Source: Capillidium heterosporum
Lineage: Eukaryota; Entomophthoromycota; Entomophthoromycetes; Entomophthorales; Capillidiaceae
DNA: 38,452 bases
Direction of reading: 5' to 3'
NCBI GenBank assembly: GCA_016630905.1
Contig: WBMQ01000030.1
Coordinates: 1-38,452, forward strand
The notes under the pieces were generated by a model. It had not been told where the DNA came from, searched no databases, and saw nothing but the letters and a program-made list of their open reading frames with translations. Shown piece by piece: positions 24,831 through 38,452 of the stretch. Numbering within the stretch: position 1 is the first letter of the stretch; each line of letters starts with the position of its first letter. The position numbers and the translations under genes were made by a program.

Positions 24831-25650
24831 CCTTAAATAAGGCCAAGATAACTTTAGCCTAGTTCTCTTGATAATAGTTTAACTCTAGTTGACATATATA
24901 TCATTCAGCTGTTTACATTGGTTACTACAGATCCAAATAGCATAGTATATCCTTAATAAAAGATATATCACGAGTTTATTAACACGCTGTATTTTCATAA
25001 TGGTTTATTAAGTGGCACATTATATCTTGATGTATGCTATTTTTATATGATTTAAAATAATTTATTGAACAGCTGCTATGAACTTCAATAGTTTATAGGG
25101 AAATGTCTAATTGCTATTGTCAAAACAAGCCTTAGTCCATTTTGTTTCAGCTTTAATATTAAAAATGGACAACTTCCTTTGCTTTTAAAATGTAAAGTCT
25201 AGAATGGCTGTGTGCTTTTGAGCTATTGTAGCAGCATATATATACCCTGTAGATTCAAGAGAAACTTAATAGGAAATATTTATATCGTTGGAAGTGGGCT
25301 AAGGAGGTATGAACAAAGCCGACGCTTTTCGAGGATAAATATCCGCATCTATTGATTTGAAGATATGGAAAACATAGTCGACAAATATACTGCCCTGTTC
25401 CAAAAATATAAATACTGGCTTCTAAGTTTATCTGTAAGAATGTTGCCCATAGTATCCAAACAGAGTAGTCTTCATGTTAATGATGGCTAAATTTGTCAGG
25501 ACAGCCCTTTCTAAATCACATATTTTGACATAGTACGATAGTTTCTCTACCAAGACAAGCTACATTTTCATTATTCAGTTTACAAAGGGGCCTAAACAGA
25601 AGAAAGCAAGTAGACGCAATCACATATAACTATTCCAGTTGGCCTCAAAG

Positions 25651-25683
25651 TTAAAAATAGATGGCCTGGGTTTATATTTTTAG
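25651..25683. promoter_or_regulatory. Paired MADS-box (MEF2/Rlm1-type) sites, copy 1
   Basis: TTAAAAATAG at 25651 fits the MEF2/Rlm1 consensus YTAWWWWTAR. ATATTTTTAG at 25674 fits in nine of ten positions. The start-to-start distance is 23 bp, the same as upstream of copies 2, 3 and 8. The pair lies 250 bp before the TATA box. Confidence 0.55.
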
Positions 25684-25878
25684 TTGCTATTGAACATTAA
25701 GCCACACTGTTGTAAATTTTCTGTCAAGTATAAGGATTTAAGTCGTGTGATATGTATCAAATATATTGCCGAATTAATAAAAGCTATAGATGAGTTGGTT
25801 AATATAATATACATTGGATTAGTACTTTATCAGGTAAGTGCCACAAGACATAAATATCTATAAATGTTGCGTTGCATG

Positions 25879-25908
25879 TTAAAAATAAGTGAAAAGTACA
25901 TATAAAAG
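25879..25908 (+). promoter_or_regulatory. Proximal MADS-type site and TATA box, copy 1
   Basis: TTAAAAATAA at 25879-25888 fits YTAWWWWTAR and ends 13 bp before the start of TATAAAAG at 25901-25908. The start codon follows 64 bp after the TATA box. Confidence 0.65.
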
Positions 25909-25964
25909 AGAGCTTTGCATCTTAATTTTTCATAGAAAAACTCAACTCCAACCGACTTTTCCAA

Positions 25965-26357
25965 ATGAAATTGCAAATCATTCTCTTAGCCTCTCTCCTC
26001 AGTCTCATCAATGCTGATAAATGTCCCACCCCTAGTGGTGGCTGCGGCGATGTCCACTTACCTCCTGGTGGCGCTTGGAATATGGACACCACCTTCTACT
26101 CCGAGGCCAACTATGGTGGCCAGTACAACACCACCAAAGTCAATGGTATTTATGGATGTAGCAACGATATCCCCGACTTTCAGATCAAGTCTATGATAAG
26201 TTCTGGCAGTACTCGAGTATTTTTACACTATGGTAAGGACTGTGTTGGCCATATTCTTTATGAAGTTCAAGGTGGCACTAACAACTTGGATAGTTTGAAG
26301 GGATGTCCTGGGTCAGTTTTCATCAAGTACAACCGTCCTGAAGGTGCAAGCTGTTAA
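25965..26357 (+). CDS. Secreted beta/gamma-crystallin-like protein, array copy 1
   Basis: This intronless gene encodes 130 residues. Residues 1-17 form a signal peptide (MKLQIILLASLLSLINA), and the mature chain starts DKCP. Cysteines are at 20, 27, 65, 93, 114 and 130, enough for three disulfides. The segment FYSEANYGG matches the beta/gamma-crystallin sheet-corner pattern (aromatic, x4, aromatic, x, Gly), and IPDFQIKSM and PGSVFIKYN resemble the closing Ser-containing strands. The second half, with HYGKDCVGH, has Cys where the second aromatic would be. The function is unknown. Small secreted proteins of similar fold include some microbial antifungal proteins, which is suggestive only. It is the first copy of the array and the only one whose C-terminus reads PEGASC. 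Confidence 0.88.
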   Translation: MKLQIILLASLLSLINADKCPTPSGGCGDVHLPPGGAWNMDTTFYSEANYGGQYNTTKVNGIYGCSNDIPDFQIKSMISSGSTRVFLHYGKDCVGHILYEVQGGTNNLDSLKGCPGSVFIKYNRPEGASC

Positions 26358-27450
26358 TAGTGTATATTATCTAGATTCGTCTATATATTTGATAAATGGT
26401 GTATTATAATTTTCGCTTGAATTGTAGTTTAATATGGGTTTATTTACAAGTATTCAAATATAAACCTTGTAAGATTGGCTTTTTAATATTGATAAATATA
26501 CTTACTACTACTAAGAATAGCGATGTGTATTTAAGTATAGACAATTATTTAGTGAATTTCCAAGAGTCACATTTAGTATGTTATTAAAAGCAGGCAATAT
26601 TCTATTGCAAGGTACATGTAGGTATGCCATCAAAGTTCCACATCCTAGCTCTACGGCATCCGATAAAGTAGACATGTTTTCTATAGAAAATAGAGGCTGA
26701 TCCAATAAGCTTAGGAACTCTTTGGGTGATCGATCCAACTAAAATTTAGTAATTTTAATCCGGCCTCGGGAATTTTTTAGCCCGAATTGTCCCACCTTCG
26801 GCTATTTACATCTGCCATCTTGTGACAAGATTTAATATGTGCTTAATGAAATTTGTAGCACATGCATTACAAACATGTAATATCGTCTGCAACTTTTATT
26901 AATAGGTACATCGTATCTTAATATCTGCTATTTTTACCTCTTGAAGTAGCTGTATTAAACCATTTTCATACATCCTAATAGCTGGAAGAGTGAAAAGATA
27001 CTTTGTACGGATATTTTACAAACTTTTAAATAGGTGTATTAAACCACTATTGTAGAATGTATAGTTTAATGGGTAAATACATAATTTATGTTAGCAATTT
27101 AGGTCTTATTCATTATAATGAAATTTCAACCCTAAAAATAAATATCTATTTTAAATTTTGCTTTCAAAGTGGAATAATAAAGTATACATAGCGGTGAACT
27201 GTTGGGTGCTTACAGGCTATTAGAGTGATATATAGGCATTTTTATTAAACGACACACATTATAGCGAGTGGCTTAAGGAAATACCAGCAAAGTTGCTTTG
27301 GCTAATTAAATGCCCGCATTCATTCAAGTAAAAGAGGTGTGGAGGAGCCATGTCTTCATAATTGATGCCAATGTTTGCTAAATTAAGCTTCCTTTGCTTG
27401 CATATTTCATCAAGGAAGATCGTTCTCATTTGCACAATTGGACTTCAGTG
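26358..27450. other. Array spacer 1-2
   Basis: This is AT-rich spacer, homologous in parts to the spacers before copies 1 and 3. A minus-strand open frame at 26511-26738 (75 codons) has no recognisable family and no supporting exon, so I do not call it a gene. Confidence 0.5.
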
Positions 27451-27483
27451 CTAAAAATAATATACTTGGCAGGTTATTTATAA
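27451..27483. promoter_or_regulatory. Paired MADS-box sites, copy 2
   Basis: CTAAAAATAA at 27451 and TTATTTATAA at 27474 both fit YTAWWWWTAR fully, and they start 23 bp apart. The second differs in sequence from the equivalent site of the other copies but still fits the consensus. The pair lies 137 bp before the TATA box. Confidence 0.6.
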
Positions 27484-27565
27484 CTTGAAATTAGAAATTA
27501 TGCTGCATTACTTTGAAATTTCGGATCATGACATCTGTTGGACTAAATGAGTGTTACATTATCAA

Positions 27566-27595
27566 CTAAAAATAAGTGAAGGTTACGTATAAAAA
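27566..27595 (+). promoter_or_regulatory. Proximal MADS-type site and TATA box, copy 2
   Basis: CTAAAAATAA at 27566-27575 ends 13 bp before TATAAAAA at 27588-27595, the same spacing as in copies 1 and 4. The start codon is 74 bp after the TATA box. Confidence 0.65.
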
Positions 27596-27661
27596 GAGGA
27601 TCGGCGACTCGATTGTTTAGACAGAAATCAACACCTCTTAAGTCTAAAACTCAAACGCAAA

Positions 27662-28048
27662 ATGAAATTCCAAGCCGCCCTCCTAGCTTTAGCTGCCACT
27701 CTTATTTCCGCCGACAAGTGCCCTGCTCCAAGTGACAACTGCGGTGATGTTTCTCTACCTCCCAACTACAACGTCAACCTGGATGCCACCTTCTACTCTG
27801 GCACCAACTTCACCGGTGACTTTAAGAAGTCTACTATCAAGGGTATTTACGGATGTACTAATGATATCCCCGACTTCCAAATTAAGTCGATGTTGAGTAC
27901 CGGCTCCACTCAACTTACTTTCCACTATGGTAAGGACTGTATCGGTCACGTCATCACCCAGGTCCAGGGTGGTAGCTCCAACTTGGATACTTCCAAGGGT
28001 TGCCCCGGTTCGGTATTTATCAAGTTGAACCGTTACGGAAGTTGTTAA
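27662..28048 (+). CDS. Secreted beta/gamma-crystallin-like protein, array copy 2
   Basis: This intronless gene encodes 128 residues. The signal peptide (MKFQAALLALAATLISA) is followed by DKCPAPSDNCGD. Cysteines are at 20, 27, 65, 93, 114 and 128, as in copy 1 except for the shorter tail ending RYGSC. YSGTNFTG at 44-51 is an exact (Y)x4(F)xG crystallin pattern. It differs from copy 3 by only three residues (34, 43 and 106). From about 70 bp upstream of the start to codon 112 the two genes are about 98% identical, but their last 17 codons and 3' flanks are not close. Confidence 0.9.
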   Translation: MKFQAALLALAATLISADKCPAPSDNCGDVSLPPNYNVNLDATFYSGTNFTGDFKKSTIKGIYGCTNDIPDFQIKSMLSTGSTQLTFHYGKDCIGHVITQVQGGSSNLDTSKGCPGSVFIKLNRYGSC

Positions 28049-29417
28049 TGGATGTATAGGATCTAGAGTCGTCAGTATATAGTTAATTAAAATTGTAGTA
28101 TACTTTTATTTTGAATAGTTGTTGATATATGCTTGTTTATACCTATAAAATGTTTCTTGGGTTCACTTGATCTTCTGAAATGGATTGCTATTTTCAAATG
28201 TGCCTTATCGCTACTAAGAATTACGATATATTTAAATGTAAATGTAACTGTATTTACTTATTTCAATGAACGGGCTCTAGGCAGCCATTCAAATTTAATA
28301 TCTTGCAAAGGGTACTTGTTTTTGATATACGTACCTTTGTAGCCTTAGATCCGGCAATATATCCTACTTTATAGTACATAGCTTTGAAGAAAAGGAATAC
28401 AGCCAAATTATCTAATCAATTTAAATAATCGTTTATACCGACATTAACAGGTTTTGACTTTGGCCTCCAGCTCATCCTTCAAAATAAATTTAAAATCTAA
28501 TAAATCTTTTACAGGTTACACGTAGATAGATCCATAGATTCCTTAACCCAACTTTACACCATCTGGTAAAATAACACCTTTCCATAGATTCTTGAAAGTC
28601 CATTTAGCCAATTTAGTTAAACTTAAGTGGTTGAATCAACCAAACCAAACTGCCCCATCTCTCATCGGACATTTACATCGGTTACTGTTGGGAAGATGGG
28701 CTTAATCTATGCTTAATTAAATTTATATCCCATGGTTCACCAACACGCAATTTGGTTTATATACTTTATAAATAACTACATCACAGTTTAATACCTACTA
28801 TTTTTACAAAGTTTAAAATAAATGTATTAAGCTATAACTGTATACCTCAATATCGAAATAGGCAACCATATACCTTGTACAGCTGTAGTAAATCATTATC
28901 GTATGCTTTGCTATTGAAATGGGTAAATGCATAGCTGCCATTGCCCGATAAGTCTTATCCCACCAGGTTCAAACTTTGGGATCAGAAATAAATGTCTTAA
29001 TATAGTTTCGAGGTGTAATGGATAAAATGTACCCAACGCATAGTAGCTGGGTGCCTTTGGAGTATTGGAGCGATATTTACATATCCCATAGATTTAAGGA
29101 ACGGTTAACGGAAAATGTCTATGTATAGGATGCTTAAAGGAAGTATCAGCGAAGCTGGCCCCTTACAATTTCATTTAAATGCCCACAATTATCGATTTGA
29201 AGAGGCGGTGTGTAGGAGCCACTTTATATCCGCCACTTTGTTCCAAAAAATATAAGCGCTACTATCAAAACTCAATTGTATAGCTTTACTCAAACTATCT
29301 GAACAAGCAAAAATCGATCTCAATGTTTGCTAAATTTAGATTTGTCCAAGTTTTCTAAATCATATCCTTTGGCAGAAACGTGATCAAACTCAATATGAAT
29401 TTGTTTTAGCTTATAGG
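28049..29417. other. Array spacer 2-3
   Basis: This spacer contains blocks related to the previous spacer, for example around 28660-28980 compared with 26790-27110, and a short direct repeat TCCATAGATTC at about 28535 and 28585. A plus-strand frame at 28133-28342 is not supported as a gene. Confidence 0.5.
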
Positions 29418-29450
29418 CTAAAAATAGTTGATTTAGCCAGCTATTTTTAG
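29418..29450. promoter_or_regulatory. Paired MADS-box sites, copy 3 (perfect inverted pair)
   Basis: CTAAAAATAG at 29418-29427 and CTATTTTTAG at 29441-29450 are exact reverse complements. Each is a perfect MEF2/Rlm1 site (CTA, four A/T, TAG), and they start 23 bp apart. The pair lies 109 bp before the TATA box. Confidence 0.65.
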
Positions 29451-29510
29451 CTGCAGTTGCAAATTGCGTTGTAGTTCATTATAAATCTTTCAGATATGAC
29501 AGCTGTTGAG

Positions 29511-29534
29511 CTAAATAGAAAGCAGGTATAAAAG
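29511..29534 (+). promoter_or_regulatory. Degenerate proximal site and TATA box, copy 3
   Basis: CTAAATAG at 29511-29518 looks like the proximal MADS site of copies 1, 2 and 4 shortened by two bases. TATAAAAG follows at 29527-29534, 75 bp before the start codon. Confidence 0.5.
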
Positions 29535-29601
29535 GAGGGTCGGTGACTCGATTGTTTAGACAGAAATCAACACCTCTTAAGTTTAAAACTCAAACGCAAA
29601 A

Positions 29602-29988
29602 ATGAAATTCCAAGCCGCCCTCCTAGCTTTAGCTGCCACTCTTATTTCCGCCGACAAGTGCCCTGCTCCAAGTGACAACTGCGGTGATGTTTCCCTTCCC
29701 TCTAACTACAACGTCAACCTGGATGCCGCCTTCTACTCTGGCACCAACTTCACCGGTGACTTTAAGAAGTCTACTATCAAGGGTATTTACGGATGTACTA
29801 ATGATATCCCCGACTTCCAAATTAAGTCGATGTTGAGTACCGGCTCCACTCAACTTACTTTCCACTATGGTAAGGACTGTATCGGTCACGTCATCACCCA
29901 GGTCCAGGGTGGTAGCTTCAACTTGGATACTTCCAAGGGCTGTCCTGGTAGTGTTTTCATCAAGTTGAACCGTTATGGAAGTTGTTAA
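29602..29988 (+). CDS. Secreted beta/gamma-crystallin-like protein, array copy 3
   Basis: This intronless gene encodes 128 residues with the same signal peptide and six cysteines as copy 2. The three residue changes from copy 2 are P34S, T43A and S106F. Codons 1-112 match copy 2 at all but seven bases. The last 17 codons, stop included, differ at nine bases, all silent, and resemble other copies there (GGCTGTCCTGGTAGTGT occurs in near-identical form in copy 4). This indicates a chimeric gene made by conversion or unequal exchange. Confidence 0.9.
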   Translation: MKFQAALLALAATLISADKCPAPSDNCGDVSLPSNYNVNLDAAFYSGTNFTGDFKKSTIKGIYGCTNDIPDFQIKSMLSTGSTQLTFHYGKDCIGHVITQVQGGSFNLDTSKGCPGSVFIKLNRYGSC

Positions 29989-30985
29989 TTTGTGGATTTT
30001 GTTTATAATAAATTGCTAACCCATATACCATACATTGGTGCTTTTGAATAATGTCCGTTGTTTATTAATAAATAAAAATATGACTAATACCTTTATTAAC
30101 GGCAATTTATTTTACAATCCACTTTTATGAGCTATTTTATAGATATACCTTTTTCAAATAGCTACTTGCTTTGTTTATCAAAACTTATATAAAGTGCATT
30201 TCTTATTTCCAATCCATAAAGATGGAATAGTAGCTTCCATTCAATTGAATATCCAAATAGAGGATTTATACCTATCTACTCTTTAAAGAAAGGGAAAGAA
30301 ATGTAGCTCATTTGATAGCAGAGTATTTAAAACTAGTCTTCGGATTATCCCTCTAACTTTCATCTTCTACTACCTGTTATACACTATTGATATAAATATC
30401 TGTGCATGCTGTATACAGGATAGTTTTAAGATTGAGGCGTCAAATGGAAGGTGCCTATAGTTAGATTAATTGTAGTTGATTTTCCAGCAATATGAATAGT
30501 GCTTGGCCTATTTGATATAAGTACAACGATTGAAATATATTCCTCAGGTTTCCAAGATAATTTGATGGATTTGAAGTGATAGTTTCAAACTAAACTGTAT
30601 TTTGCCCCAGATTTCAACTTCCTACTACTTTGGTCTCAATAAAGCGTTGCAAATTCAATGTTAAGCTGTTCAAATAACCTGAGCGATTTCTTATCAATTC
30701 AATAGTAAGAAATTCGGTATATCCTGAACAGAATAATATTAACCTGGAATTATTGATTTGGACCAGAGTAGTAGGAAGCTAAGGTTTGTCCATTTCCAAG
30801 TTTGAGTATCGTGAAATAGACTTTTTGATAGGTAGCTTAAGGAGTACTAAGCAAAGTCTGTCTTCCTACCCAGATGTCCACATCTACCCAACCTAAGCTA
30901 TAGGTATACATAGCCGAGTTATTTATATCGTTTTTAACTTTCGCTAGATCTAGCTATACTCTAATTTAGATTTGATGTGTCAAAG
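29989..30985. other. Array spacer 3-4
   Basis: This is AT-rich spacer. A block near 30830-30860 (TAGCTTAAGGAGTACTAAGC) resembles blocks before copies 2 and 3. I see no gene. Confidence 0.5.
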
Positions 30986-30995
30986 TTAAAAATAG
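30986..30995. promoter_or_regulatory. Single distal MADS-type site, copy 4
   Basis: TTAAAAATAG fits YTAWWWWTAR and lies 125 bp before the TATA box. The expected partner 23 bp further on (31009-31018) no longer fits the consensus. Confidence 0.5.
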
Positions 30996-31088
30996 CATTC
31001 TTACCTGCTGTGTTTACTTTGAGGTTGAAGTGTACTTATGACAACTTTGTTTCGCCGACCGTTGCAAAAAGATGGGATATAGTATTAT

Positions 31089-31118
31089 TTAAAAATAAAC
31101 AAAGAATATGTATAAAAA
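31089..31118 (+). promoter_or_regulatory. Proximal MADS-type site and TATA box, copy 4
   Basis: TTAAAAATAA at 31089-31098 ends 13 bp before TATAAAAA at 31111-31118. The start codon is 68 bp after the TATA box. Confidence 0.65.
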
Positions 31119-31178
31119 GGGAGTTGACAAAGCAAATACTTCAAACAATAAATTGATTTTTAATATATTCATATAAAA

Positions 31179-31565
31179 ATGAAATTCCAATCCATCTTCC
31201 TAGCTTTGATTGCCAACCTAGTAATTTCTGACAAGTGTCCAACCCCAAGTGACAACTGTGGTCCCGTTGGTCTGCCTCCTAACAGTAATTACACGATGGA
31301 GGCAACTTTCTGGCCTGAAGTCAACTTCACCGGTCAATACAAAACCTCCAAAATCAACGGAATCTACGGATGTACCAACGACGTCCCCGACTTTCAAATT
31401 AAATCGTTCGTAAGTACGGGGTCGACGCAGGTCACCTTCCACTATGGTAAGGATTGCTTTGGCCACGTCATATACCAGGTCGAAGGTGGAAGTGCCGATT
31501 TGGAGGCTTCCAAAGGCTGTCCAGGTAGTGTCTTTATCAAATTGAACCGGTATGGATCCTGTTAG
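31179..31565 (+). CDS. Secreted beta/gamma-crystallin-like protein, array copy 4
   Basis: This intronless gene encodes 128 residues. Signal peptide MKFQSIFLALIANLVIS is followed by DKCPTPSDNCGP. Cysteines are at 20, 27, 65, 93, 114 and 128, and WPEVNFTGQY is the first crystallin-like corner. The tail IKLNRYGSC is the same as in copies 2 and 3, while the middle differs at many positions (FVSTGSTQVTFHYGKDCFG). It is the most diverged intact member of the first subfamily. Confidence 0.9.
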   Translation: MKFQSIFLALIANLVISDKCPTPSDNCGPVGLPPNSNYTMEATFWPEVNFTGQYKTSKINGIYGCTNDVPDFQIKSFVSTGSTQVTFHYGKDCFGHVIYQVEGGSADLEASKGCPGSVFIKLNRYGSC

Positions 31566-32475
31566 TTTTGTTCATTAGCTCCAATAAATCTGTAGTGCAT
31601 ATTTTAATCAAGTAAGTCTTATAAGTTATAGCTTTATAGGTGACTTTTTCATTTCTATAGATACTATTTATGCGTTATTTTACCAGTGATATAAGTCTAG
31701 CTAACATTTCTATCAGTAGCAATTCAACTTTATAAAGTGAGGCCAACTGATTGATTAAATCAACTCCCTTTCAGCAACCCCGGCTTTATATTCAGCTTTT
31801 TATAGCTCTGATTTATACATCATAGAATTGGGAATTTGTATTTGAAATATTTTAATATAAATATAGTATATAGAAAATAAAATTCAATAAATAAATATAG
31901 CCTTCGACAATACATATATTTATATTGTGAGGCTCGAGATTCCAGCTATTCCTTTGATATAATGTAAAAAATACAAATTTCAGTCTATCTTTCAAGTACT
32001 GATTCACTAGTATACTTGAGTACTAGCTACTTTCGAATGTATATTTCCCCTACAACTGATATAGTTACCATAAAAACTATATGGCTTACTAGTTATCGAC
32101 AAATCAGCATTTGAGAACCTGCCTTGAACACAAATTTCTCTCAAAGCATGACCCATCTTCAAATCTAAAGTAGAGCAAAATGAACTTTATAGGCATGCCT
32201 TTGAGAACTATCGACGAAGTTTACTTTTCTATTTGAAAGTCTAGATCTATATACGAAATAAAAGTGGATAAAGACTGCTTTCTGAACACTGGTTTAACGT
32301 TTACTTGATCTAATTACGAAATTTTAACTGCGTAGCTTAATTTTAAAGTTAACAGTAGTAGGTTGAACTATAACATTAATAGAAGCTGAGCTACATCCAT
32401 TATAGCCTTGATCCGAGACACCTCGAAGAAAGGAACAATAGGTGCCACTTAACCACTTAAGAATATGAAAGACAG
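31566..32475. other. Array spacer 4-5
   Basis: This spacer belongs to the second subfamily. The stretch 32100-32400 is homologous to 33720-34020 before copy 6 (for example GTTTACTTGATCTAATTACG compared with GTCTACTTGATCTAGGTACG). It lacks the 23-bp paired MADS sites of the other copies. Confidence 0.55.
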
Positions 32476-32483
32476 TATAAAAG
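32476..32483 (+). promoter_or_regulatory. TATA box, copy 5
   Basis: TATAAAAG lies 59 bp before the start codon of copy 5, in the same relative place as in the other copies. Confidence 0.6.
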
Positions 32484-32534
32484 AGATGCCAATAACTCGA
32501 ATCCTTAATAGAAACATCTCAACCAAGTGCCCAG

Positions 32535-32960
32535 ATGCATTTCCAAACTATTTTCCTAATTTTCACTATCATCGGTATGGTAGCCAGTGCCAAGTGCCTG
32601 ACCCCAAGCGATCCTTGTGACAACGTCCGCGCGTTTGACTACCAAAATATTGGGCACGATGTATTCTTCCACTCTGAACCCGAATTCCTTGATGAAGCCA
32701 AGGCAGCCAGTGTGAAGGGAACCTACGGGTGCATCGATGACGTTCCCAACTTCAAAGTCAAATCCATCTTGAGTAATGGCGTCAACTTTATCACCTTGCA
32801 CAAAGGTAAGGGCTGCATTGGTCCGGTCATCGACAAGTTCCTGAGTGCTAAAGAGAATTTGGAGGCTACAGAAAGCTGTCCTGGTATTGTTTTCGTCCAG
32901 CTCCGTTTTGATGAGAACTGCAAGCCTTCTTTATCTCGAAACATCCAGATCAGTGGATAG
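32535..32960 (+). CDS. Secreted crystallin-like protein, array copy 5 (second subfamily)
   Basis: This intronless gene encodes 141 residues. Signal peptide MHFQTIFLIFTIIGMVASA is followed by KCLTPSDPCDN. Six cysteines are kept (21, 28, 66, 94, 115 and 129), but the sequence has moved far from copies 1-4. The first corner motif is altered (HSEPEFLDEA, with no Gly), the second half reads LHKGKGCIGPVI, and a 12-residue tail after the last cysteine (KPSLSRNIQISG) is new. It keeps the order YGCIDDVPNFKVKS and CPGIVFVQL. Copy 6 shares the MHFQ start and the extended tail. Confidence 0.87.
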   Translation: MHFQTIFLIFTIIGMVASAKCLTPSDPCDNVRAFDYQNIGHDVFFHSEPEFLDEAKAASVKGTYGCIDDVPNFKVKSILSNGVNFITLHKGKGCIGPVIDKFLSAKENLEATESCPGIVFVQLRFDENCKPSLSRNIQISG

Positions 32961-34082
32961 ATTTCCAAATATTTTTAAGGTAGACAAATGCCACCAAATA
33001 AATATATAGTTTACTAACTTTTATTTTGAGTATAGGATGCTTTTGCTTTTACCTAGCCTTAATTTGATTGAAGGATGATAATATATAAGAGCCACTTGCG
33101 ATTTCAACAATTTTTAGAGATGTCAAACTTGCAAGTATTTTGCAATGAATTGAGCAATTGCAGTTTCAAATAAGCTTTTTAACTCATAGATAATGATGAC
33201 CATCCATATGGATGTGAGTTTCATTTGAGTGCACCATCAATCAATTTGAAGCAAAAGAAATAAGGCAAGTAAACCAAAAGCTAAAATAAATGTATAAGTC
33301 AAGAAGTTTATTTAAAAACGACCCTTCTAAAGGGCTAATACAAGCCCAGTTGATATTGCTATCGACAGTAGTTTGCTTTCATGGATACAGTATCTACTAA
33401 CAATTTTAATTTTCCTACGGTAGTAATATGACGATACTCAGCTATTAATAGTACTGATTTATAAATTTTAATTTTAAAGTAACTAAATTAAAATATTTAG
33501 TGTATGCACATTTAAGTTCAAAAAGTAGGGATAGTTTTCAATTTTATAAGTCTTTATATGATGGGGCCGAAATTATGAGCATTTTTTAGATCCAAGTGTA
33601 ATAGGAAAATATCAATTTCGGATCTATCCTTCAAATAATGACACACCATTATTGGTAGTTTTATATATATTAATATAGATTTCCTCTACATCTTGTATAG
33701 TTAGCTAAAATTACTGGTTACTGACAAGCCAGTATTTTATAGTTTGTTTGGAGAGTCAATTTTAGTCTCAAAGTATAATCCACCTTCAAATCTAAAGACC
33801 CTAGGACCTATTGATGAAATCTAACCCTCTACTTGAAGATCTGGATCTAAGTATGAAATAGAGATGGATAAAAGCTGCTTCTTAAATATTGGTTTGAAGT
33901 CTACTTGATCTAGGTACGAAACTTTAACTTTGGATAATCTAACTTTAAAGCTAAGTTATGGGCTGAGCTGTCGCTTTAATAGGAATTGGGCTATATCCAA
34001 CACAGGTCTTTGTCCGAGACAACTCCAGGAAAACAAAGAAACAGTAGGCGCTATCTAAAATGCAAAGGCATTAAAATTAGTG
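32961..34082. other. Array spacer 5-6
   Basis: This is AT-rich spacer whose right part is homologous to the region upstream of copy 5. I see no gene. It includes a TTAAAATTAG sequence at 34071-34080 directly before the TATA box, a possible remnant of the proximal site. Confidence 0.5.
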
Positions 34083-34090
34083 TATAAAAG
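34083..34090 (+). promoter_or_regulatory. TATA box, copy 6
   Basis: TATAAAAG lies 75 bp before the start codon of copy 6. The promoter of this frameshifted copy is therefore still recognisable. Confidence 0.55.
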
Positions 34091-34157
34091 AGTACTAGAT
34101 ACTCGAGTCATCAAAAAACTCAAGCTATTAGTAAAAGAATATAAGCAGCTAACCCAA

Positions 34158-34569
34158 ATGCATTTCCAAGTCGTCTTTCTAGCCCTCATTATCAGTCTTG
34201 TAGCTAGTGATAAGTGTCCCGCTCTAGACAGTTATTGCGACGACTTCAGCTTAGGTGATGAAAAAGATTTGGAACGCCAAGTTAAATTCTACTCCAATGC
34301 TTACTTATCGGGCAAATCCAAAACCTCAACCATCAAGAGTGCGTTTGGATGCATCAACGACATGCCCGACTTTGAGATTAAATCACATTTCGAGCAATGA
34401 TGTCAACTATGTTACATTGTACAAGGGTAAGGACTGCATTGGAAAAATCATCGACCAATATCAGTATATGAATCTGGATTTGAATTCTACCAAGGGATGC
34501 CCCGGTAGTGTCTTTGTCCAAATCCGCCTTCCTGAGAAATGCAACACCTTTTTACCAGGACACATCTAG
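34158..34569 (+). pseudogene. Array copy 6, crystallin-like gene with one-base frameshift
   Basis: The first frame runs from ATG 34158 (MHFQVVFLALIISLVAS, DKCPALDSYCDD) through FGCINDMPDFEIKSH and then meets a TGA at 34398. The family sequence continues in the next frame as ISSNDVNYVTLYKGKDCIG to a TAG at 34567. Comparison with copy 5 places one surplus base, a C, at about 34386. Without it the gene would encode 136 residues with six cysteines and an extended tail. An upstream in-frame ATG at 34080 lies within the promoter and is unlikely to be used. It is a recent pseudogene or a sequencing error. No homopolymer is involved. Confidence 0.8.
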
Positions 34570-35717
34570 ATCATATATTAGATTTAGAAGACTTTAAAGA
34601 TTGAGGATTATATAGATAAAGATTTATTTGATTATTTTTATTTTACGTATGTTATTCTTTATTTTTACCCAGCTAGGTTTTTATTTAAAGATAGCTATCT
34701 ATATATGAACTACTCTTGATTTCAAAGTTTTTGAGGCATGTTGGGTAGTTAAATAGATTTAAAGAAATTGCAATTGGATTGAATTATAAGACAAGTTATA
34801 TTAGAATTTAGAAAATACTTCTACTGTAGCCTTATCGAATCAAATGCTAATCTAAATTGAAAATAGGGCATATTTATGATACAAGCCTACTGAGATATAC
34901 TTTAATATATTTTAGATCTTAAAGTACTAAAAGACTTGGAGTACCATTCATAAGTTGTAAAATGTACTTAAATCTCCTTTAGTTTGAAGTTTTAATTTTA
35001 TAGCTGATAATGGCATCAGCTTATACATATTTAATCTACTTCATCTGCTACAAGTAAGGTATGTTTGGATGAATGTTGCTTATCAATGACAACCTGCCCT
35101 TATTCTTTTATAAACTCCAACTTTCAGCGGCCATAAACCAACTTCCATACAACATCTCAAATTTTATAAGCAACTATCTAAACGATTAGCCTAGATAGCC
35201 AATAATGGGTTATGTATACCTAAAGCCAACTGTATACGAAACAGCGAGTACTCAAATAGAATAAAATTTCCAACCTTGAATTGACTTGACCAAACTTTAG
35301 TTCTTTCAAATATACCTATCTATCAAACTTTAGATGGCAGGTTTCTTGGAATGGAATCGGCAATTAATAGCTTAAAAAGTAACAAACGGAGCTCTCACTT
35401 CTATTAGATGTCAAGATCTAGATTTACAAAGAATAGCGATTTAAAAAATTACTATATGTAAGGTTTTAATATCTACTAGATTTAGTTACATGCCAATCTA
35501 GACCTAAGTAGCTTAAATTTCAAGGTGAAAGTTGAAAGCAATGGAGTTGCTGTCATTTAAGTTGATTAAACTACACCTAGTACAAATTGTTTTCCAAGAC
35601 ATCTGAAATATGAAGAAAAGCTAGGTGTTCAACAACCTTCTAATTTTGATTACTTGGTGTAAATAAAAAGGAAAACTAATTCTTAAGATTTCAACAAAAA
35701 GATATACTTCAGCCTAG
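34570..35717. other. Array spacer 6-7
   Basis: This AT-rich spacer has patches resembling the upstream regions of copies 5 and 6 (for example around 35410-35560). I see no gene. Confidence 0.5.
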
Positions 35718-36040
35718 ATGAGCATCCTCTTATTCTTCTAGCATTGGCTGTCAACTTTATGGCCATCAAAAAGTACCCAGTCAAAAATGACAACTGCAGT
35801 GTCGGTCACATACATCTCAACTCTGACTTTAGGATGAAAGTTAGGTTCTAATTGTAACCCAACTTTGTAGGTGATCACAAGAGTTTGATAATTCCAAATA
35901 CTTTTACATGCATCAATATTGTACCCAACTTTCAAACAAAACCTATATTGAATGGTTGTTACAATCGAATGATTTTAAACTATAAGTGTAAAGTTCAGAA
36001 AGTGCTGCTGGATCCAGCTAATGATACGATAGGTTAGAAA
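35718..36040 (+). pseudogene. Array copy 7, decayed crystallin-like relic
   Basis: An ATG at 35718 is quickly out of frame. The family is readable in an adjacent frame: LILLALAVNFMAIKKYPVKN, DNCSVGH, then after two stops NFVGDHK, TFTCINIVPNFQTKPIL and YKCKVQ. These align with NFTGDFK, YGCTNDIPDFQIKSM and YGKDC of the intact copies. The TATA-like AAATAAAAAG at 35661 is degenerate. The coding region has several stops and at least one frameshift, so this copy is dead and older than copy 6. Confidence 0.65.
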
Positions 36041-36279
36041 GTGAAATTAAAACTTACCGCTGCATTAGTGATAAAGGTTTGAACTCTCTGGATGGCAGGT
36101 CGAATAGAAAACTAAAGAATATATACCATAAGGAGCGCTCACACAATGATAATCAAGTTCCAGTTCCAAGAGGGGGTAGATTGAGACTTAGATACGGACT
36201 GGGGCTAGATAGGATGGGGCCTTCTAGATGATGATTGAGCAGCAGTAATACTATAGTATTAGAGTCAAGGATAGGGGTT

Positions 36280-36940
36280 GGCTGATAGGTCGACGTCGGT
36301 TTAAAACGATTGATCGTATTAGTAATATTAATCGCCCAAAGAGGTGAGATCCAAGGGTAGTAAGGATCGTTAACAGGTGATAGGAGGCATGGAGGGTAGA
36401 AGAACTAGACCACATAGTAATTCTATGCTGAAAACAAAGATGTGAGCAAGGACAAATTTTATTCAGAAACTAAGAACCGAAACCAAGCTGCTAGGAACAA
36501 AGGGTGAGTAGCAACTAGGAGTACGAGGTGGAACGTTGTCAAGATTCTGGCTTTCGGTACTAACAAATGGTTTAAATATCTCTATACCATCTTGGTCGTA
36601 GTTACGTTAGGAAGATTAAGTTTCCGTCTGTAATTAACTATTCTACATAGCAATTAGATATTTACCAAGTTTAGCTAGAAAGGTTGGTGATACTGTCAAC
36701 TACTGCGAGTGGGTTTACCATCATTGGAATGATAGAATCAGATAACATACCGCTAATCGTTGGAGTTCTCAGATGATAGTCTAAATCAAGAAAAATAAAA
36801 GGGAATCAAAATATCCGATATGTGATGTAAATTGTAGCTAAGGTAGTTACGAATTAAGGATGGAAAAAATTGAAAAGAAATATAACAAAAAATAAAGAGG
36901 ATAATAGATCTATGACCTAGTAATACATATTTTAATGAAC
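36280..36940 (-). pseudogene. Decayed membrane-protein gene, copy B
   Basis: The minus strand is homologous to 16790-17450 over most of its length. Shared blocks include GGTCATAGATCTATTATCCT against GGTCATAAACCTGTCCCGCT, and LDYHLRTPTISGMLSDSIIP against LDRYFKVQTISSIVSDLGIP in translation. It also reads ILTTFHLVLLVATHPLFL and YPWISPLWAINITNTI, both membrane-like. Stops and frame changes are frequent. It sits between copies 7 and 8 of the array, where it lengthens that interval by about 1 kb. Confidence 0.45.
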
Positions 36941-38153
36941 AAGGCCATTACAGATTATATAAAATCTGTGGTTATATATACATCACATTCTTAGTAGAAA
37001 GCGAAAATATAAACTGGTAACAAGGCAAACCCTTCAAAGGGTTCATTATGAATAGGTTGACACTATATGTCGAGACCTTAAAATTTATGATATGTACCTT
37101 TTACGATTACTAAAAACCAATATTTGTTGATATATTGCAAGCTGTATGTAGATGTATAAATATAAAATCTACCCTAACAATTTAACATCTGATAAATCAA
37201 AGACACCTTATTTTGTTATTGAAAGCTAATTAGCCTTGACATTTAAGATTGCTAATTTCCAAAGAAACTCAAAAGTAGTCTTCATCCTGTTAGGAATTTT
37301 TAATTCCAAAAGCCTTATCTTTGTCCTTATATCGAATATATTATATTTATAATTGCAAAATAACTATATATTGCACTATACAGTTACTAAACATGTATCA
37401 AAAAGCCTATTAACATACAGCTGTCTTGACGTTTCGTTTAAACTTTAAAAATAGATATATCCCATCTATATGTTTAGTCCCCCAATCGTGAATTCTGGGA
37501 CGCTCTACTATAAAGCATTTTCTTTATACTTATATTCAACTAATTTATAGGAAAGTATAGATAATAATGAACAACGGATACTAAGTTAAACGTTCAAAAA
37601 ATAATAAACGGAGAAGCTACTAAGTTTGGAAATTGTATCAATATAATAATAACAAAATATTTAAAGATATAACTACATACTTTCAATTACTATAATGGGC
37701 TTTATTCCGTAATTTTGAATCTTTTGACCTAAAAATAAATTTTTTCGAGTTTGTAATGTGACCTATATACTATAGTCTACACAAAACCTAATAGATAGGT
37801 GTATCTGAAGTAACTTGATGACACTTATGAATATATATTACATTTGATGGATTCTTACTAAAGAGATGTTTGAATTGTAGGGAGCATTTTGAAAAATCTG
37901 TCAAGGCTCGCTTACTTTTGACTTCATTTAAATGCCTGTATCCCCTCGACCAGCCAAGCGATGAGTAGGGGTATTTGCTTTGGTACCTTCTATACTTTGC
38001 TCCAAAAATTTAGATCAATTTCCAAAACTTCATTCAAATTGCTTGAACAGCCAAAAGCAAACCCAAATGTTTACCAAACTTAGTAATGGCATGCTTTGAA
38101 ACCTCCTGCTCTTCAAGAAATCAATCGTTCATATTTGAACTACTCAGTGAAAG
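36941..38153. other. Array spacer before copy 8
   Basis: This is AT-rich. The part from about 37860 onward is related to the spacers before copies 1-4 (for example AAATGCC at about 37930 and CAAATGTTTACCAAACTTAG near 38065). I see no gene. Confidence 0.5.
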
Positions 38154-38186
38154 TTAAAAATAGTATGCTTGACCTACTATTTTTAG
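38154..38186. promoter_or_regulatory. Paired MADS-box sites, copy 8
   Basis: TTAAAAATAG at 38154 and CTATTTTTAG at 38177 both fit YTAWWWWTAR, with the same 23-bp start-to-start distance as in copies 1, 2 and 3. The TATA box TATAAAAG is at 38296-38303. Confidence 0.6.
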
Positions 38187-38372: not shown

Positions 38373-38452
38373 ATGAAATTCCAAATTCTCATCTTAGCCT
38401 TAGCCGCTTCCCTCATCTCGGCTGACAGTGCTCTGCCCCTTGACAACTGTGG
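38373..38452 (+). CDS. Array copy 8, crystallin-like gene, cut by the window edge
   Basis: Only 26 codons are present. Signal peptide MKFQILILALAASLISA is followed by DSALPLDNCG. The equivalent region of copy 2 is DKCPAPSDNCG, so the first mature cysteine is gone. The DNA suggests one base lost in AAG and two lost just before GAC, together keeping the frame. Whether the rest of the gene is intact lies outside the window. Confidence 0.75.
   Translation, partial: MKFQILILALAASLISADSALPLDNC

Follow-up and report, generated by a model that had tools for sequence, protein, structure and literature searches.

What keeps two MADS-box-type sites exactly 23 bp apart in four promoters of one fungal gene array? 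The array lies in the right half of a 38,452-nucleotide window from Capillidium heterosporum, which is the entire contig WBMQ01000030.1 (C24) of a 29.5-Mb genome (assembly GCA_016630905.1), and it consists of tandem genes for small proteins that, by eye, have a hydrophobic start. This contig, a second one (C21), and the end of a third (C2) represent three alleles with ~99% identity. The main work was done on allele C2, which extends beyond the end of the window, and the genes are numbered g1–g9 in order. Our analysis suggests that the paired sites are probably a composite element for a MEF2-class MADS protein, inherited from the promoter of an ancestral array gene and maintained by selection.

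The pairs are located upstream of g1, g2, g3, and g8 (Table 1), at the positions reported in a preliminary description of this DNA. In all four, the starts of the two sites are 23 bp apart, and the 13-bp spacer between them shows no net insertion or deletion. Seven of the eight sites fit the consensus YTAWWWWTAR assigned to them previously; the exception is site 2 of g1 (ATATTTTTAG), in which the first base is off. In g2, g3, and g8 the pair has, by eye, a GTTTGCTAAATTTAG-like block on one side and a TGACAGYTGT-like block on the other. The distance from site 1 to TATAAAA on allele C2 is 109–250 bp among the four paired promoters, as had been reported.

The window contains 44 matches to YTAWWWWTAR, compared with a mean of 17.65 in 100 shuffles. 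In the 13.7-kb array region (allele C2) there are 13 sites with an A4 or T4 core, against 1.1 in 60 shuffles (maximum 4); the figures for 129.5 kb of other fetched DNA, near-copies included, are 17 and 6.8. Among these array sites, 23 is the only spacing within the range of 10–60 bp (two pairs). With the looser W4 pattern, this spacing is found three times, and spacings of 15, 26, and 41 once each. No 23-bp pair was observed in 60 shuffles of the array. In a further test, site 1 was kept in place, the 110 bp on each side were shuffled, and up to one mismatch was allowed in the second site. Neither a single offset common to all four promoters nor a 10-column window with 7 invariant columns was obtained in any of 3000 shuffles.

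The sites are conserved against diverged surroundings. Pairwise identity among the four copies, for which the random expectation is 27%, reaches 53/60 (88%) in site 1 and 49/60 (82%) in site 2, compared with 33/78 (42%) in the spacer and 44/120 and 51/120 in the left and right 20-bp flanks (35–42%). The earlier statement that the spacers differ is largely correct, although their similarity is slightly above random (P 0.011), as is that of the right flank (P 0.002). Invariant columns amount to 8/10 in site 1, where they arise partly by construction because this site anchors the alignment, 7/10 in site 2, 1/13 in the spacer, and 14/177 in the flanks. For site 2, the difference from the spacer and flanks together (15/190) gives a Fisher P of 7e-6, and that from the spacer alone a P of 0.003. 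Five site columns vary; in four of them the substitutions stay within Y, W, or R, and the fifth has an A in g1. The three alleles are identical at every site position; of the 41 columns that differ among alleles in the 700 bp upstream of five genes, none falls in a site (about one expected) and one in a spacer, too few to test selection.

The coding sequences provide a measure of how far the copies have drifted apart. At four-fold degenerate positions, comparisons among g1, g2, g3, and g8, except g2/g3, yield 9–14 matches of 27–36 (32–42%, five comparisons), and g4 matches g2 or g3 at 19 of 37–39. Synonymous divergence (NG86 dS) in nine comparisons among g1–g4 and g8, again excluding g2/g3, is undefined in four and 1.46–1.85 in five. 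Sites and spacing that are conserved next to diverged four-fold positions and flanks, together with changes that stay within the consensus, suggest selection on the two sites and on their distance, as the preliminary description had argued. The copy without site 2 (g4) is the one whose best spacing departs from 23.

Three MADS-box genes are present in the genome (four matches, one gene being split). One of them, on C12 (locus L052), encodes a MADS and a MEF2 domain and is clearly of the MEF2 class; its exon 2 aligns with human MEF2A over 69 residues (E 1.2e-32), compared with E values of about 1e-5 for SRF and Mcm1. The other two appear, by eye from their translations, to be of the SRF/Mcm1 type. 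The presence of this gene and the variation, which falls largely at degenerate consensus positions, are consistent with the MEF2-type reading proposed earlier. PMC3250504 reports that Mef2A/D and yeast Rlm1 bind CTAAAAATAG and gives CTATTTTTAG as the Drosophila Actin57B site. The array uses the same 10-bp words as these MEF2/Rlm1 promoters and differs from them in having two such words whose fixed distance has survived the divergence of the paralogues. On both strands together, the genome contains 442 copies of CTAAAAATAG compared with 180 of its reversed word, and 361 copies of CTATTTATAG compared with 179.

We propose that the ancestral array gene already had a composite cis-element in its promoter, which selection has since retained. 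Each of the two sites would be occupied by a dimer of this fungus's MEF2/Rlm1-class MADS protein, and the two dimers, held 23 bp apart with 13 bp between the sites, would cooperate, either directly or via a common co-factor. Working ~110–250 bp upstream of the TATA box, the dimer pair would control, presumably by activation rather than repression, one group of genes whose products are betagamma-crystallin-like and probably secreted. The earlier suggestion that both dimers occupy one DNA face finds no support, as 23 bp correspond to 2.19 turns at 10.5 bp per turn, ~70 degrees off.

The MEF2-class gene itself has four strict sites in the 418 bp before its ATG, where 0.18 are expected, and none of 4000 shuffles reached four. 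Two of these sites form a strict 23-bp pair at -127/-104, which was not reproduced in 4000 shuffles either. At least four sites are found in 6 of 2119 overlapping background windows, and the SRF/Mcm1-like loci (1.1 and 1.2 kb read) contain one site and none. Autoregulation is known for animal Mef2 genes. We regard the pair at this gene as a lead, not as proof.

Several observations weigh against a selected MEF2 element. The pair at the MEF2-class gene was found post hoc, while all 23-bp pairs in the fetched DNA were being listed. A TATAAA word at -163 precedes it, its two sites share their A/T orientation, unlike those of g1, g3, and g8, and a strict 23-bp pair is present in 8 of the 2119 background windows. 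We also inspected 17 upstream regions of the family, some of them near-copies: those of eight open array genes, of six further matches including the decayed g7, and of three more distant ones, leaving aside three weak matches on C4 (86, 103, and 137 kb). The preliminary description had named paralogues without the pair or its spacing as the observation that would speak against it, and in part this is what we see. Four regions (g1, g2, g3, and g8) keep the pair, and 12, including g5, g6, g9, C4a, and C4b, lack it, all of them belonging to more distant relatives. The close paralogue g4 (60–72% identity) retains site 1 and has lost site 2, for which the match is better at 22 bp (3 mismatches) than at 23 bp (6). 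This loss and the pairless distant copies indicate that the pair is dispensable for the family at large.

The similarity of spacer and flanks exceeds random expectation (P 0.001–0.03), as would be expected of a continuous stretch of homologous DNA, so the copies are not independent events. The pair is, moreover, a strong block but one of several that are conserved. When non-overlapping 33-bp windows were ranked by their summed best matches in the other four promoters, it came first when viewed from g8 and third from g1; from g3, where a converted-looking tract common to g2 and g3 dominates, it was seventh. Among the first 100 listed of the 442 positions of CTAAAAATAG, only the g3 pair is closer than 1 kb, which suggests that exact-consensus pairs are not a common code. 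The non-MEF2 word GTAAAAATAC also exceeds its reversed word (222 against 128). Part of the word excess may belong to the TAAAAATA core generally, and this control slightly lowers our confidence in the MEF2 reading.

The same selected element could have another reader, namely a homeodomain, forkhead, or HMG protein, a TBP-like A-tract factor, or one factor on the inverted repeat TAAAAATA...TATTTTTA. Such a repeat, with the A-rich arm first, is formed by the pair in g1, g3, and g8, all but one of the 8 sites have AAAA or TTTT as their W4 core, and the excess of GTAAAAATAC points in the same direction. The decayed site 2 of g4 (CTGTGTTTAC), which we take to be forkhead-like, is counted here as well. 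However, site 2 of g2 (TTATTTATAA), correctly described before as changed and still within the consensus, breaks the inverted repeat and retains the MEF2 consensus. In addition, the site ends vary mostly as Y and R, and the MEF2 words stand at about twice their controls genome-wide. On this evidence we consider a reader of another class unlikely.

Plain shared descent, in which one promoter was inherited and the sites are a chance remnant whose spacing was never selected, has less to recommend it and seems decidedly improbable. Upstream blocks are common to the copies over several hundred bp, in one order in g1, g2, and g3 and more weakly in g8 and g4. The spacer and right flank are weakly similar, as noted above, and a local alignment of g4 and g8 covers 43 bp at 81%. 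On the other side stand the far-diverged four-fold positions and the gap in identity between flanks and sites. The spacer has kept its length in four copies, yet the distance from the pair to the TATA box varies by 141 bp, and the sole copy with a differing best-aligned spacing has lost site 2. Descent alone thus appears to explain the pair poorly. The block order also lends no support to the earlier picture of a movable module: in g1–g3 the pair keeps its order among the conserved blocks and only the distances change. The blocks of g4 and g8 are weak, so the kept order applies to those three copies.

Two further sources were tried and rejected. A dispersed repeat or mobile element is not indicated, since a 181-bp query from the g3 promoter matched the three alleles only, in a search that ignores simple repeats and words of very high frequency. 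Gene conversion does not account for the conserved sites. Between TATA box and stop codon (27587-28049 and 29526-29989), g2 and g3 share 95.5% identity, and far less outside, which looks like gene conversion; the tract starts at the TATA box, the pair sits just upstream of it, and spacers and flanks differ. Finally, the sites might be chance matches, a reading to which the 34% GC of the array, the degenerate consensus, and the occurrence of other 23-bp pairs in the fetched DNA (with no more than one mismatch per pair) lend some colour. It is scarcely credible, and for the four pairs as a set chance is excluded by the 3000 shuffles and by the excess of sites in the array.

A selected MEF2 element would serve genes that form an orphan family with a predicted betagamma-crystallin fold, the fold matched by a domain in the predicted structure of g3. 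A Pfam scan of g1, g2, g4, and g5 at E 0.1 returned no families (g2 and g3 share 98% identity). Six proteins were matched in a profile search at E 0.01, two from Neoconidiobolus thromboides, one from Conidiobolus coronatus, and three further ones; a single-sequence search recovered one of the six. These matches most likely place the fungus in the Conidiobolus group (Entomophthorales). The proteins are probably secreted, as their hydrophobic start suggests by eye. In the protein tree, for which alignment row P0001 contained alignment-file gaps, only 3 of the 13 inner branches are settled and 10 are open, and the tree does not date the paired group against N. thromboides. PMC8237998, which couples Conidiobolus with crystallin, was set aside, as it concerns HSP20/alpha-crystallin.

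Further sites and family members were observed. YTAAAAATAA is found exactly 22 bp before TATAAAA in g1, g2, and g4 and was not seen as such in g8 or g3. A second, distal MEF2-like pair with sites 32 bp apart lies in a conserved block upstream of g2 (26896/26928) and g3 (28766/28798); its second site, CTATTTTTAC, is one base off, and a weaker counterpart was seen by eye at 25005/25037. Four CTAAAAATAG words ~2.3 kb apart on one strand (C3 245390-252421) suggest another tandem unit, and no clear gene was found in the 3.3 kb read there. Two more family members (L016 and L017) are arranged head-to-head at C4 1019373-1021011, with no pair between them. In the window contig, g6 (34158-34527) was matched as two overlapping pieces, as if frame-shifted; it is open in C2 (136 aa), and the discrepancy is a polymorphism or a sequencing error. 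The g7 gene (35732-35983) is a decayed array member with two TAA codons within the matched stretch. C24 and C21 terminate within g8 in an identical stretch of 60 letters that does not read as in allele C2, and this common end looks like an assembly break.

Table 1. Array genes, MADS-box-type sites, and the sites of the MEF2-class gene; positions refer to the window unless another sequence is named.
Feature	Position	Strand	Remarks
g1	25965..26357	+	130 aa, hydrophobic start by eye
g2	27662..28048	+	128 aa
g3	29602..29988	+	128 aa; betagamma-crystallin fold in model
g4	31179..31565	+	128 aa
g5	32535..32960	+	141 aa; promoter without pair
g8	38373..38452	+	truncated by contig end; open, 128 aa, in allele C2
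g1 site 1	25651..25660	+	TTAAAAATAG
g1 site 2	25674..25683	+	ATATTTTTAG, one mismatch to YTAWWWWTAR
g1 third site	25879..25888	+	TTAAAAATAA, 22 bp upstream of TATAAAA
g2 site 1	27451..27460	+	CTAAAAATAA
g2 site 2	27474..27483	+	TTATTTATAA
g2 third site	27566..27575	+	CTAAAAATAA, 22 bp upstream of TATAAAA
g3 site 1	29418..29427	+	CTAAAAATAG
g3 site 2	29441..29450	+	CTATTTTTAG
g4 site 1	30986..30995	+	TTAAAAATAG, half element
g4 likely decayed site 2	31008..31017	+	CTGTGTTTAC, 3 mismatches, 22 bp from site 1
g4 TATA-proximal site	31089..31098	+	TTAAAAATAA, 22 bp upstream of TATAAAA
g8 site 1	38154..38163	+	TTAAAAATAG
g8 site 2	38177..38186	+	CTATTTTTAG
MEF2-class gene upstream sites	L052 nt 37-324 (C12 2029837-2030124)		four strict, two 23 bp apart

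Paired MADS sites have a precedent in plants, where tetramers of MIKC MADS proteins bind pairs of CArG boxes. The likeness lies in two MADS sites at a preferred distance and two dimers acting as one unit. The plant system differs in its CArG boxes and its K-domain proteins, and the array gives no sign of a tetramer. In yeast, PMC8836261 places Rlm1 boxes of the MLP1 promoter at -510/-501 and -359/-350, both functional, which resembles the array in having two Rlm1/MEF2-class sites upstream of one fungal gene. As described there, MLP1 differs in that its boxes are 151 bp apart, with no short fixed spacing, one being exposed and the other under a nucleosome, and in that the gene product is a pseudokinase. 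No paper on two MEF2 sites and their spacing, or on Conidiobolus MADS-box genes, was found in the open-access library searched.

Most of what is known about regulation by MEF2/Rlm1 proteins comes from animals and from cell-wall stress in yeast. As they stand, the paired sites of the array form a promoter footprint that is well supported and belongs to a known general type. More tentatively, the fixed 23-bp MEF2 pair might be a regulatory word of its own, present both at the MEF2-class gene and at its target array, through which a self-regulating MEF2 protein drives the array via two cooperating dimers, in a fungal circuit outside the yeast cell-wall pathway. If the MEF2 reading is true, the array would provide a testable MEF2 target set in an early-diverging (Entomophthorales-like) fungus and would shed light on how a pair of MEF2 dimers works together across a fixed distance.

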